Assembly (NCBI GenBank): GCA_012512505.1
Contig: JAAZEB010000150.1
Coordinates: 1-39,859 of the forward strand
Source: Armatimonadota bacterium
GTDB lineage: Bacteria > Armatimonadota > JAAZEB01
Reading direction: 5' to 3'
DNA: 39,859 nt
A program made the position numbers and the translations under genes. Of the stretch, positions 8,270 through 36,947 are shown in pieces; positions within the stretch are counted from its first letter, which is position 1; every line of letters begins with the position of its first letter. Below the pieces are notes generated by a model. It had not been told where the DNA came from, ran no database searches, and saw only the letters and a program-made list of their open reading frames with translations.

Positions 8270-8298
8270 TTGACTCTGGCCCCCGCAATCACTAGAAT
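8270..8298 (+). promoter_or_regulatory. Sigma70-type promoter TTGACT-N17-TAGAAT
   Basis: TTGACT at 8270-8275, TAGAAT at 8293-8298, 17-bp spacer. Confidence 0.7.
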
Positions 8299-8384
8299 GC
8301 TATCAGCCACAGAAGCGCGGCAAGCGCGCGGCTCCTGCCGCGCCGCGCGCCCCCGCGCTCCCCAGTTGAAGGGAGGTGATGAAG

Positions 8385-8423
8385 ATGTCCGACCGTGAAG
8401 TTCGCGTGTTCCCACCCCGCTGA
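8385..8423 (+). CDS. Putative 12-aa leader peptide MSDREVRVFPPR
   Basis: ATG TCC GAC CGT GAA GTT CGC GTG TTC CCA CCC CGC TGA, preceded by the near-perfect SD gggaggtgatgaag. Confidence 0.45.
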   Translation: MSDREVRVFPPR

Positions 8424-8633
8424 GAGCACGCGAACGGGCGCAGGTCTGCGCCCCTCATTGCCTGCATCCCTGGAAAAGCAGGGCAACCGCCGGTCGGACT
8501 GCTTCATGTCCTCCCGCCGTCGGCCCTCCCAGGGAGCAGATTATCGCCCTCGATCTCCCAACTCTGTTTGGACTGACCGCATTAGGGCGACGCCTTTGCG
8601 TCTCCTCTGCGCCAGGTCCAGACGCAGTTGGGA
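8400..8633 (+). promoter_or_regulatory. Structured mRNA leader of the double-cubane reductase operon (candidate riboswitch or attenuator)
   Basis: GTTCGCGTG(8400-8408)/CACGCGAAC(8427-8435); GGGCGCA(8436-8442)/TGCGCCC(8447-8453); TTGCCTGC(8458-8465)/GCAGGGCAA(8478-8486); TCCCAACT(8556-8563)/AGTTGGGA(8626-8633) enclosing GACGC-CTTT-GCGTC (8589-8602). Confidence 0.55.
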
Positions 8634-8664
8634 TGACCTTCTGAACCCTGAGGAGAGCACCCCG

Positions 8665-9945
8665 ATGAAGCTCGCAGACTACACCGAGCTGTGGCAATCG
8701 CTCGGCCTGGACCTGGAGGCGCACGACGGCCTTCTCCGCACCCTCGGCCAGGCCTACAAAGAGATCTACCTCTCGCAAAAGAACCGGCCGGCGGGCATGG
8801 ATTACTTCGACTTCGTCATCTCGGAGATCCATGGCCTGCGCATCCGGGAGCTGGCCGAGGCCAGGAAGGAAGGCCGCATGGTCGTCGGCACCTTCTGCCT
8901 CTACGTGCCCGAGGAGCTGGTGCTGGCCCTGGATGGCATCGCGGTCGGGCTGTGCGCGGGCGCCGACGTTGGCACCGAGGCTGCCGAGCAGGTCCTGCCC
9001 CGGAACACCTGCGCCCTGATCAAGTCCTTCTTCGGCTTCAAGCTGAGCGGCCTCTGCCCCTACACCGAGGTCTGCAACCTGGTGATCGGCGAGACGACCT
9101 GCGATGGCAAGACGAAGGCCTACGAACTCTTCAACGAGTACAAGCCGACCTTCGTCATCGAGGTGCCCCGCATGAAGTCGCCGGCGGCGCGCGCCCTCTG
9201 GCGAAGCGAGCTGGGCCGGCTGGCAGCGAAACTCGAGGAGCTCTCGGGGCAACCCCTCACCGCGGAGAAGTTGAGCGCCGCCGTGCGCACGGTGAATGCC
9301 AAGCGCGCCGCGCTGCACCGCCTGAACGCCCTGCGGCAGGCCGACCCCGCGCCGATCTCCGGCCGTGACGCGCTCCTGATCAACCAGGTGCAGTTCTACG
9401 ACGACCCCGTTCGGTTCACGGAGAAGGTAAATGCCCTGTGCGACGAACTGGAGGAACGCGTCCGGCAAGGGGTCGGCGTGGCGCCGGCCGGTACGCCGCG
9501 GGTCCTCGTCTCCGGCTGCCCGATGGCCGCGCCCAACTGGAAACTCCCCTTCGTCGTCGAGAGCAGCGGCGCCGTGATCGTCGGTGAAGAGTCGTGCGTG
9601 GGCGAGCGTGGCACGCGCCACCTGGTCTCCGAAGAAGGAAGTACGGTCGACGACATCCTGGATCGCCTCGCGGCGCGTTACCTGGAGATCGACTGTGCCG
9701 TCTTCACCCCCAACACGGAGCGCCTGGACCACATCACCGAGATGGCGAAAACCTACGCCGCGGACGGCGTCATCCACTACGCGCTGCAGTTCTGCGCTCC
9801 CTACACGATTGAAGCGGCCCGGGTGGAACGGGCGCTTGCCGCCCAGGAGGTTCCCCTGCTGCGCATCGAGACGGACTACAGCATGGAGGACATGCCGCAG
9901 CTTCAGACGCGCGTGCAGGCGTTCCTGGAGATGGTGCGGGCGTGA
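8665..9945 (+). CDS. Double-cubane-cluster-containing anaerobic reductase (2-hydroxyacyl-CoA dehydratase superfamily, YjiM-like)
   Basis: VVGTFCLYVPEELVLA, LPRNTCALIKSFFGFKLSGLCPY, LVIGETTCDGKTKAYELFNEYKP, VLVSGCPMAAPNWK, VGEESCVGERG, ALQFCAPYTIEA; Cys positions match my recollection of E. coli YjiM. Confidence 0.88.
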   Translation: MKLADYTELWQSLGLDLEAHDGLLRTLGQAYKEIYLSQKNRPAGMDYFDFVISEIHGLRIRELAEARKEGRMVVGTFCLYVPEELVLALDGIAVGLCAGADVGTEAAEQVLPRNTCALIKSFFGFKLSGLCPYTEVCNLVIGETTCDGKTKAYELFNEYKPTFVIEVPRMKSPAARALWRSELGRLAAKLEELSGQPLTAEKLSAAVRTVNAKRAALHRLNALRQADPAPISGRDALLINQVQFYDDPVRFTEKVNALCDELEERVRQGVGVAPAGTPRVLVSGCPMAAPNWKLPFVVESSGAVIVGEESCVGERGTRHLVSEEGSTVDDILDRLAARYLEIDCAVFTPNTERLDHITEMAKTYAADGVIHYALQFCAPYTIEAARVERALAAQEVPLLRIETDYSMEDMPQLQTRVQAFLEMVRA

Positions 9946-10736
9946 GCGTGCGCGCGGCGGGCCTCGACATCGGATCGCGGTCGGTGGAACTGGTGGTGGT
10001 GGAGGGAAGCGACGTAGTGGCCACGGCGCGGATCGACACCACCCCCTCCCTGGAGGCCGACTGCGAGCGCCTGCTGGCGGCGACCTCGTTCGACCGGCTC
10101 GTCGTGACCGGCTACGGGCGCGCGCTGGCCGAGGTGAAGTTCGCCGCCGACAGCGTGACGGAGATCCGCGCCTATGCCCGCGGCGCCGAGGCGTGCTTTC
10201 CGGGGTGCCGCACGGTGCTCGATATCGGCGGCCAAGACACCAAGGCGATCGCGCTGGACGGGCAGGGCCGGGTGGTGAAGTTCGAGATGAACGACCGCTG
10301 CGCCGCCGGCGCCGGCAAGTTCCTCGAGATCATGGCCCAGGCCCTCGGCTATTCCCTTCCGGAGTTCGGCGCCGCGGCCCTTCGCGGCGCCGACTCCCTC
10401 CGCCTCAGCAGCATGTGCGCCGTCTTCGCCGAATCGGAAGTGGTCGGCCTGGTGACGAAAGGAGAGCGCCGGGAAGACATCGCCCGGGCCGTCCACCGGG
10501 CGATTGCGCGCCGCAGCAGCGCCATGCTGCAGCGCGTCTCCACCCGGCCTCCCGTGGTCTTCGCCGGCGGCGCCGCTTTGAACCCCTGCCTGATTCAGAT
10601 GATTAGCGAAGCCCTGGGGCAGGCGGTTCACGTGCCGGAAGACCCGCCGATGCTTGGGGCCCTCGGCGCCGCCCTCCTCGCCCGCGACCGTGATCGTTCC
10701 GCGCATAGCGGCCAACCGCTGACCCCAGGGGCCTGA
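9942..10736 (+). CDS. ASKHA-type activator ATPase (BcrAD/HgdC/YjiL family)
   Basis: [61 protein letters not shown] start overlaps the upstream stop. Confidence 0.92.
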
Positions 10737-30949: not shown

Positions 30950-32467
30950 ATGCGCCGCATAGTGATCTTTGATACGACGTTGAGAGACGGGGAGCAGTCG
31001 CCCGGGGCCAGCATGAACTTGGAGGAGAAGCTGGAAGTGGCCCGGCAGTTGGCGCGCCTGGGCGTAGACGTGATCGAAGCCGGTTTCCCCATCACCTCCC
31101 AGGGCGATTTTGACGCCGTACGCCTGATCGCCACGAAAGTGGCCGGTCCGACGATCGCCGGCTTGTGTCGCACCCTGCCCGCCGACATCGACCGCGCCGC
31201 CGAGGCGCTGCGGCCAGCCAAGAAGGCGCGCCTCCACACCTTCATCGCCACCTCCGACATCCACCTGGAGCACAAGCTGCGCAAGAGCCGCGACCAGGTG
31301 CTGGAGATGGCCGTGGCCGGGGTGAAGCGCGCCCGCAACTACACCGACGACGTGGAGTTCTCCGCCGAGGATGCCGGGCGCACCGATCCAGACTACCTCT
31401 GCCAGGTGGTGGAGGCGGTGATCGACGCCGGCGCCACCACGGTGAACATCCCCGACACCGTCGGCTACACCGTGCCGCACGAGTTCGCCAGCCTGATCCG
31501 CACCCTGCGCGAGCGCGTGCCGAACATCAACAAGTGTGTCCTCAGCGTCCACTGCCACAACGACCTCGGCCTGGCAGTGGCCAACTCGCTGGCGGCCGTG
31601 CTGGCCGGCGCCGGGCAGGTGGAATGCACGATCAACGGGATCGGCGAGCGGGCAGGCAACGCCGCGCTGGAGGAAGTGGTGATGGCGCTCAACACCCGCG
31701 CCAGCCTCTTCCAGGCAGAGACCGGCATCAACACCCGCGAGATCTACCGCACCAGCCGGCTGGTGACCGACGTGACCGGCATTCCGGTGCAGCCGAACAA
31801 GGCGGTGGTTGGCTCCAATGCTTTTGCCCACGAAGCGGGAATCCACCAGCACGGGGTGATGCAGGAGCGCGCCACCTACGAGATCATGGCAGCCGAGTCG
31901 GTGGGCGTCGCCGAGAGCCGCCTGGTGTTGGGCAAGCACTCCGGCCGCCATGCGTTCGAGAAGCGCCTCCGCGAGCTGGGCTTTGAGCTGTCCCGCGAGG
32001 ATCTAGACCGCGCCTTCGCCCGCTTCAAAGACCTGGCGGACAAGAAGAAGGAAGTGTTCGACGCCGACCTGGAGTCGATTGTGGCCCACGAGGTCCATGC
32101 CGTGCCGGAGGAGTACTCCCTGGAGTACATGACCGTGGTCGCCGGCCTGGAGGGCTACCCAACGGCGACGATCCGGGTGCGGCGCGGGCAGTCGGAGTTG
32201 GTGGATGCCGGCCTGGGCGTGGGCACCATCGACGCGGTCTACAAGACGATTGACAAGGTGGTGCAGGTGCCGCACGAGCTGGTGGAGTACTCGGTGAAGT
32301 CCGTCACCGGCGGCACCGATGCCCTGGCCGAGGTAACGGTGAAGATCGGCGCCGAGAGCCGAATCTACACCGGGCGCGGCGCCAGCCTCGACGTGGTGGA
32401 AGCGAGCGCCAAAGCCTACCTGCAGGCGATCAACAAGTTGGTCTACTACCAATCGCAAGGGCGGTAG
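30950..32467 (+). CDS. leuA: 2-isopropylmalate synthase
   Basis: [57 protein letters not shown]...[20 protein letters not shown] at 30950 after SD ggagg. Confidence 0.96.
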
Positions 32468-32517
32468 CGCCAGGGATGGGCGCCGGTCGGAGCGCCGGCG
32501 CCCATCCCTGGCGCTAC
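32464..32517 (+). repeat. Perfect 23-bp inverted repeat spanning the leuA stop codon
   Basis: GTAGCGCCAGGGATGGGCGCCGG (32464-32486), loop TCGGAGCG, CCGGCGCCCATCCCTGGCGCTAC (32495-32517). Confidence 0.9.
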
Positions 32518-32591
32518 CTGAGGCGCGAGGACGACCGCCGTGGCCGGAACGCCCTCCTGGCGCTGGAACGTCCACCGCGTTGTGTCTGTTC

Positions 32592-35729: not shown

Positions 35730-36947
35730 TTGACGAGGCGAGCAGAGAGCGCGGAGCTGGCCCCCCCCATCCCCCCCGAAACCGGGGGGGCTCCGAGCCC
35801 AACTCCCCCCAACATTGGGGGGTCGGGGGGGCAAGAGAGCCCAGCTCCCCCCGATCTCGGGGGGTCAGGGGGGCAAGAGAGCCCAGCTCCCCCCAACATT
35901 GGGGGGCCGGGGGGGCAAGAGAGCCTAGCTCCCCCCAACATTGGGGGGCCGGGGGGACAAGAGAGCCCTGCTCCCCCCAGCATTGGGGGGTCGGGGGGGC
36001 AGTCGCGTGAATCTCAGCCCCCGGTGGCGATCCTGACCGGCCCTACCGGCGTAGGGAAGACGGAGGTGGGCGTCCTGGTCGCGGAGGCCCTGGGCACCGA
36101 GATCATCAACGCCGACTCGATGCAGGTCTACCGGGAGATGCACGCCGGCACGGCGAAGCCCTCCCCCGCGGAGCAGGCGCGGGTGCCGCACCACCTGGTG
36201 GATGTCACCTCCGTGGCCGAGGTGTTCACCGTGGCGGATTTCCGCGCGCTGGCGATTCCCATCCTGGAACAGCTGCTGGCCGAGGGGAAGATCCCGCTGG
36301 TGGTGGGAGGCACGCGCCTCTACATCAAGGCGCTCACCGAGGGCTTCTTTCCCGGGCCGCCGCGCGACCCGGAGTTCCGTGCCCGCATGGAGGCGCTGGC
36401 GCGAGAGCACGGGCGGCCCTATCTGCACGCGTTGCTGGCCGAGGTGGACCCGGCAAAGGCGGCACAACTTTCCCCGCACGACCAAAAGCGGATCATCCGC
36501 GCCCTGGAGGTGCACCACCTCACCGGCCGGCGCATCAGCGAGGTGCAGGCGGAGAGCCGCGCGGCGCCCCATCCCTACCACGTGATCTTGATCGGCCTGG
36601 TGCGCGAGCGCGACGAGCTGTACCGGCGCATCGACGAGCGCGTCGATCGCATGCTGGAGGAGGGCCTAATCGACGAGGTGCGCCGTCTCCACGCCGCCGG
36701 CCTCGACGAGCGGTTGACGGCGATCCAGGCGCACGGCTACAAAGAGGTGATCGGCTACCTGCGGGGGCAGTACGACCTGGAGGAGGCGATCCGCATCACC
36801 AAGCGCAACACACGCCACTACGCCCGCCGCCAGCTCTCGTGGCTGCGGCAGGAGCCGGGCATCCACCTCCTCGATGCCTCTCGCCCGCCCGCCGTCGTCG
36901 CCGACGAGGCCGTGGCGATCATCCGTGCCGAAGCCACGCGCGGTTGA
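35730..36947 (+). CDS. miaA: tRNA dimethylallyltransferase MiaA with repeat-encoded N-terminal extension
   Basis: PPVAILTGPTGVGKTEVGVLVAEALGTEIINADSMQVYREMHAGTAKP...; TTG at 35730 in frame with GGAGG 8 nt upstream is the most plausible start. Confidence 0.85.
   Translation: MTRRAESAELAPPIPPETGGAPSPTPPNIGGSGGQESPAPPDLGGSGGQESPAPPNIGGPGGQESLAPPNIGGPGGQESPAPPSIGGSGGQSRESQPPVAILTGPTGVGKTEVGVLVAEALGTEIINADSMQVYREMHAGTAKPSPAEQARVPHHLVDVTSVAEVFTVADFRALAIPILEQLLAEGKIPLVVGGTRLYIKALTEGFFPGPPRDPEFRARMEALAREHGRPYLHALLAEVDPAKAAQLSPHDQKRIIRALEVHHLTGRRISEVQAESRAAPHPYHVILIGLVRERDELYRRIDERVDRMLEEGLIDEVRRLHAAGLDERLTAIQAHGYKEVIGYLRGQYDLEEAIRITKRNTRHYARRQLSWLRQEPGIHLLDASRPPAVVADEAVAIIRAEATRG
35759..36000. repeat. 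42-bp tandem palindromic repeats (CTCCCCCCAACATTGGGGGGTCGGGGGGGCAAGAGAGCCCAG)
   Basis: Units start at 35803, 35845, 35887, 35929 and 35971, with a degenerate unit from about 35759; each contains CCCCCC-NN..NN-GGGGGG. Confidence 0.92.

Follow-up and report, generated by a model that had tools for sequence, protein, structure and literature searches.

The reductase operon, its leader and the selenocysteine machinery

The window analysed here is a stretch of 39,859 nucleotides from an Armatimonadota bacterium (contig JAAZEB010000150.1 of assembly GCA_012512505.1). It carries a gene encoding a double-cubane-cluster-containing anaerobic reductase, which scores 476.7 bits against NF040772 (equivalog cut-off 350), followed by a gene encoding an activase (Table 1). 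We know of no physiological substrate for double-cubane reductases. Regarding selenocysteine (Sec) metabolism, the genome encodes SelA (579 bits) and SelB (350 bits, or 383 with neighbours in frame) and has a tRNA-Sec with the anticodon TCA (UCA in RNA). Dicubane proteins have been provisionally tied to selenium metabolism (PMC10418091), and subunits of 2-hydroxyglutaryl-CoA dehydratase are listed together with the genes for SelA, SelB, YedF and DUF3343 (PMC5322559). SelB was detected in 14 of 15 Armatimonadota reductase carriers against 126 of 276 other genomes of the phylum (P=2e-4), and at the Armatimonadota loci G118:C176, G134:C66, G082:C58, G097:C185 and G277:C122 genes of the HGD-D/double-cubane family are found about 10 kb or less from selB or tRNA-Sec.

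Table 1. Positions of leader and operon features in the window (nt)
Feature	Position	Strand	Remarks
Sigma-70-like promoter TTGACT-N17-TAGAAT	8270..8298	+	0.0 +/- 0.1 expected in shuffles
G+C-rich 5' hairpin of transcript	8314..8359	+	
P1 5' arm (mini-ORF Shine-Dalgarno, start, first codons)	8371..8395	+	inverted repeat, 84% complementary
Mini-ORF Shine-Dalgarno GGGAGGT	8371..8377	+	strong Shine-Dalgarno in 18/18 leaders
12-codon mini-ORF MSDREVRVFPPR, stop UGA	8385..8423	+	alternative in-frame start ATG 8379
Stem of 9-12 bp spanning UGA	8400..8435	+	predicted in the window leader
UGA, proposed selenocysteine codon	8421..8423	+	UGA in 18/18 leaders; SelA, SelB, tRNA-Sec(TCA) in genome
Read-through extension, 50 open codons past UGA	8424..8576	+	stop UGA 8574-8576
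SECIS-like hairpin GGGCGCA-GGUC-UGCGCCC	8436..8453	+	apical loop 18-19 nt past UGA
Third hairpin, within P1	8458..8486	+	predicted fold
P1 3' arm	8491..8515	+	inverted repeat with 8371-8395
Segment predicted to pair with reductase Shine-Dalgarno and start (8640-8667)	8518..8540	+	MFE and ensemble, prediction
Second structured domain, TCCCAACT/AGTTGGGA around GACGC/GCGTC	8556..8633	+	holds read-through stop; predicted in the window leader
Shine-Dalgarno GAGGAG of reductase gene	8651..8656	+	sequence
Double-cubane-cluster-containing anaerobic reductase (HGD-D family)	8665..9945	+	NF040772, PF06050
ATP-dependent activase (BcrAD_BadFG / CoA_E_activ)	9942..10736	+	PF01869, TIGR00241

The reductase start lies about 360 nt 3' of the promoter. 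A preliminary description of this region had listed that promoter, a strong Shine-Dalgarno sequence (SD, printed as GGGAGGTG) with a 12-codon ORF, a perfect 9-bp stem with its 5' arm in the ORF and its 3' arm past the stop, an abutting 7-bp hairpin with a GGTC loop, and a third hairpin, all of which are present, the 9-bp stem (8400-8408/8427-8435) lying inside the element that spans the UGA. The closing 8-bp stem of that description also exists (8556-8563/8626-8633), but it ends 17 nt before the GAGGAG of the reductase gene and not about 8 nt. Overlooked were the largest element of the leader, a 25-nt inverted repeat (here P1), and the identity of the mini-ORF stop as UGA, followed by a GGTC hairpin shaped and spaced like a bacterial SECIS.

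The window leader has a minimum free energy of -190.9 against -144.0 +/- 5.9 in shuffles (z = -8.0), and no intrinsic terminator was found on its + strand. An Rfam search of the window leader, suggested in the preliminary description, returned no family at gathering score, which assigns it to no known riboswitch or leader family. The leader is single-copy in its own genome, which speaks against a mobile repeat. Promoters with the same 17-nt spacing, TTGACT/TTGCAC-N17-(TACAAT/CAAAAT/TATACT), were found by sequence upstream in three other leaders (L008, L009 and L010).

Several further arrangements around reductase and Sec genes were observed. By eye, the reductase was seen to be closely preceded by the end of a selD-like gene (L100), by DUF3343-like genes (L076, L092, L113) and by a TusA-like gene (L090). 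In Nitrospirota and Thermodesulfobacteria-type MAGs, tRNA-Sec-like genes with a GCA (Cys) anticodon directly precede double-cubane reductase genes (L063:3855-3946, L093:398-493 and, on the reverse strand, L095:3682-3774 and L068:3530-3626); these tRNA genes resemble the published selC* tRNA-Cys, and a possible functional link between selC* and the reductase is a separate lead. A second selB stands beside a second tRNA-Sec-like gene in G295:C36 (the genome of L044), G304:C32 and G309:C15, the anticodon of the latter gene being GCA in G295 and G309 and TCA in G304.

Leaders in other genomes and the SECIS-like hairpin

A shared design, consisting of a strong SD, an ORF of 6-14 codons ending in UGA, a SECIS-like hairpin, a closing stem and an open read-through frame, was detected ahead of double-cubane reductase genes in 18 genomes, 12 from Armatimonadota and six others. 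The leaders were collected via reductase homologues, some being initially recognised by eye, and the first seven were chosen by their SD and not by their stop. A DNA-level search with the window leader in relatives gave short chance matches at most, since it is the architecture of the leader that is conserved rather than its sequence. UGA is the stop of all 18 mini-ORFs, which encode MSDREVRVFPPR in the window (L007) and MPDCDGRAFARG in L008, likewise of 12 codons before UGA, and otherwise MMLTFHRT (L009), MRTSVVY (L010), MVLRKT (L011), MVFTRCKT (L012), MRHIHSGHT (L026), MANKFCTSFVRYRS (L041), MPDARACRLVRT (L042), MRRSRACV (L043), MIVSIYFRP (L044), MNRAWIFQYRA (L052), MARNGKT (L079), MIAQMKT (L105), MKAHAFWKT (L118), MQRPQRGT (L220), MVVKNRKT (L232) and MAYRCKT (L233).

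The model of bacterial SECIS elements (bSECIS) has an apical loop of 3-9 nt with G in the first two positions and then G or U, a stem of 4-16 bp, an energy of at most -7.5 kcal/mol and a distance of 16-37 nt from the Sec-UGA to the apical loop (PMC13188914). The window hairpin begins 12 nt 3' of the UGA and agrees with this model in size and energy (7 bp, loop GGUC, E=-12.8), in the loop rule and in the distance from UGA to loop (19 nt, or 18 with an A-U pair left open), while the Sec machinery that the model requires is encoded in the genome (SelA, SelB and tRNA-Sec); the chance of such agreement at the window locus is 0.05. Of the first 15 leaders, 10 satisfy the full criteria, where dinucleotide shuffles would give 0.9 (P=3.5e-11); the other five fall short on a strict point, in most cases the energy of the hairpin, and the fit is poor for L026 and L044. 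Two leaders from a later reductase search, L232 and L233, again show the SD, the mini-ORF with its UGA and a GG- or GU-loop hairpin, which in both is weaker than the bSECIS energy threshold. G[G/U] occupies the SECIS loop position in 16 of 17 leaders.

A mechanical scan of upstream regions found an SD-led mini-ORF followed by a bSECIS in 11 of 28 cases for TGA and 0 of 13 for TAA/TAG, with 0 of 14 in antisense and 4 of 170 in random windows as controls; one of the 11 TGA matches, in L069, is probably due to chance. The hairpin arms are paired at 97% of positions against 55% with arms swapped among leaders (0/10,000 shuffles), pairs having been counted in register by script; MAFFT alignments of whole leaders and of hairpins misplaced the arms. 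Pairing is accompanied by wide variation in arm sequence (GGGCGC/GCGCCC, GGUACA/UGUACC, AACCCA/UGGGUU), and compensatory changes in the stem can be read from the sequences of sister leaders: U-A to C-G (L043/L220), A-U to G-C (L044/L052) and G-C to A-U (L011/L232). The pattern TGA-N12-GGGCGCAGKTNKGCGCCC has exactly five matches in 291 Armatimonadota genomes, all in reductase leaders, namely the window, L008, the genomes of L042 and L043, and G281. The match in G281 (L220) was a blind one; its leader has an SD and a mini-ORF ending in UGA, 155 nt from a reductase start.

SelB is encoded in 15 of the 18 leader genomes and was not found in those of L079, where SelA was found, L105, where tRNA-Sec was found, and L232 (G258). 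The reductase of L040/L228 (G267) is 77% identical to that of the window and its genome has SelB and tRNA-Sec, but no such leader. These cases count against Sec decoding in the leaders, as do the hairpins that fall short of the bSECIS model and the second UGA of L041. Judged by the bSECIS criteria, the window hairpin is predicted to be a SelB-binding, Sec-inserting element, and the UGA of the mini-ORF is probably a selenocysteine codon at which Sec would be inserted. In the mini-ORF of L041, upstream of 291, the first UGA is followed after four codons (at a spacing of 15 nt) by another in the same frame, which is 20-21 nt before a GGUU loop; this may be read either as two recoded codons or as a degraded leader.

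P1, the read-through frame and the reductase start

P1 buries the mini-ORF's own SD and start. Across the 18 leaders, pairing of the mini-ORF start region with a downstream arm exceeds that in shuffles (combined P=3e-13), and a compensatory change, GGCAGGGC/GCCCTGCC in L012 against GGCAAGGC/GCCTTGCC in L233, can be read from the sequences. Past the UGA, 17 of 18 leaders keep the frame open for 23 codons or more, compared with 18 of 36 other frames (P=9e-4), and the stop of the read-through frame is usually at or past the P1 3' arm; a Sec-inserting ribosome would therefore traverse this arm. The mini-ORF, the universal UGA, the SECIS-like hairpin, P1, the open read-through frame and the Sec machinery emerge from sequence comparison, and the sensing module is well supported on this basis; the leader is probably a conserved cis-regulatory mRNA element. 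The earlier claim of an orphan regulatory leader ahead of the reductase operon is supported by an architecture found in 18 genomes and by the lack of an Rfam match.

Regarding the link to the reductase gene, the predicted pairing partner of the reductase SD and start (8518-8540) falls inside the read-through stretch. Within the P1 3' arm, GCTTCAT (8501-8507) is complementary to ATGAAGC at the reductase start (8665-8671) and also to ATGAAG of the mini-ORF. L011, L012 and L043 each have an anti-SD no more than about 25 nt from the read-through stop, and the pair CCCTCCGG:CCGGAGGG of anti-SD and reductase SD in L043 is replaced by CCCTCCAG:CTGGAGGG in L220, a compensatory change that keeps the helix. 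Taken over all leaders, pairing with the region of the reductase start exceeds chance only weakly (P=0.02), and the accessibility of the reductase start did not differ significantly between modelled folding states of 16 leaders (P=0.2). By these three tests a general anti-SD for the reductase SD is convincing singly in L011, L012 and L043/L220 but not in the whole set. Modelling of the short-gap leaders L009, L011 and L012 gave a more open reductase start with the read-through stretch occupied. The leader may control access to the reductase SD, as the preliminary description had suggested.

Proposed Sec sensing and alternative explanations

It is likely that this is a ribosome-mediated leader in which decoding of the UGA as Sec, as opposed to termination, sets the fold that controls the reductase. 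Ribosomes would initiate on the mini-ORF from its strong SD and arrive at the UGA and the SECIS hairpin. With plentiful Sec-tRNA-Sec:SelB some of them would insert Sec and continue through the P1 3' arm, whereas with scarce Sec-tRNA-Sec:SelB, RF2 would terminate at the UGA, and the two outcomes would leave different RNA folds. In E. coli, recoding at a UGA with a SECIS is 30-40% efficient and selenium-dependent, RF2 terminating on the failing ribosomes (PMC4513850), which makes a sensor based on Sec decoding plausible. The preliminary description, which had proposed ribosome position as an input, was right in kind but had missed the likely signal, a probable Sec codon with its SECIS hairpin.

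Most likely, read-through would remove the anti-start segment, i.e., the P1 3' arm and the following stretch, leaving the reductase start open when Sec is sufficient, while termination at the UGA would free this segment to cover the start. Confidence in this sign is about even; Sec insertion itself, a response of expression and control of translation rather than transcription are likewise inferred. The same Sec sensor may, with clearly lower probability, work with the opposite sign, read-through or SelB binding switching the reductase off and selenium shortage switching it on, as would suit an enzyme that scavenges selenium. While the mini-ORF is idle, the anti-start segment can be held by P1, and the reductase neighbours selenium-supply genes that might be worth inducing in a shortage, but the modelled opening of the start in the three short-gap leaders speaks against this sign.

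An ordinary leader-peptide attenuator, in which the UGA is a plain stop and ribosomes stall on mini-ORF codons or at termination without any role of selenocysteine, is improbable. Such leaders do typically have a strong SD and a short ORF, G+C-rich genomes use UGA more often than any other stop, and Lys/Arg-Thr, a possible stalling motif, precedes the UGA in about half of the leaders found here. Against this, the mini-ORFs have no run of one codon and their peptides are barely conserved. The UGA is retained in leaders of about 44-55% G+C (L012, L044, L052), and a SECIS-type hairpin at a near-fixed distance, the open frame past the UGA and the enrichment of SelB would be left unexplained.

A short functional selenopeptide encoded upstream in the operon, and not a regulator, is very improbable. 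The read-through ORFs are of similar length (23-60 codons), those of L043 and L220 both having 30 codons and the same stop position, but the read-through peptide is not conserved, neither in residues around Sec nor in a common CxxU motif, and L012 and L233 differ in it by a +1 indel, so that a regulatory role is favoured over a functional selenopeptide; furthermore, the ORF start is buried by P1. The least credible alternative is the ligand riboswitch of the preliminary description, for which the high structural stability (z=-8) and the room that the absent Rfam match leaves for an unknown small-molecule aptamer could be adduced, but which is unsupported, no conserved unpaired core being seen among elements that are conserved as SD, UGA, SECIS-type loop and complementary arms.

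The proposed Sec-decoding leader has its closest counterparts in several known systems. The SECIS loop of E. coli fdhF is reportedly AGGUCU, like that of the window hairpin. Bacterial SECIS elements of the fdhF type share with the window leader the UGA, a hairpin 16-37 nt downstream and G[G/U] in a small apical loop (PMC13188914). The element described here differs from these in its location, which is no enzyme gene but the short mini-ORF of a leader (6-14 codons), whose peptide shows little conservation. Thanbichler and Boeck (2002, EMBO J) reportedly described a SECIS-like element 5' of E. coli selAB, through which the SelB-SECIS interaction regulates this selenium-related operon by way of its leader, as is proposed for the reductase operon; that element reportedly has no Sec-UGA leader ORF, whereas the window leader has a translated ORF with a UGA, extended by read-through. 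The sensing of ordinary amino acids by leader ORFs is textbook knowledge, and in such attenuators (trp, his, ilv, actinobacterial Cys) the outcome of leader-ORF decoding selects between RNA folds, as is proposed for the window leader; the latter would have a single recoded UGA in place of a run of sense codons, and no intrinsic + strand terminator was found in it. The RF2 (prfB) frameshift similarly senses a translation factor through termination or an alternative event at a UGA; in the window leader the alternative would be Sec insertion directed by the SECIS, with a separate gene further downstream as its target.

No paper on a leader ORF that senses Sec via recoding was found in the open-access literature. 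The leader probably lets the cell gauge selenocysteine supply and tune an enzyme linked to selenium metabolism, and on balance we lean towards a widespread, unrecognised class of selenium sensors in which read-through of a leader-ORF UGA/SECIS reports Sec-tRNA supply and switches the double-cubane reductase. This would make the reductase a dedicated part of selenium metabolism, give a clue to the function of double-cubane reductases and explain how cells measure selenocysteine supply where it is used. Because such mini-ORFs have no recognisable homologues, selenoprotein finders that rely on homology would be prone to overlook them.

Elsewhere in the window, a perfect 24-bp inverted repeat with an 8-nt loop (32463-32518) lies between two leuA-type genes, directly after the first. 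Positions 35760-36010, between a polyprenyl synthetase gene and a region of miaA homology, hold tandem units that are internally palindromic (CTCCCCCCAACATTGGGGGG...GGGGGGCAAGAGAGCC); on both strands their folds rank among the strongest in the window.
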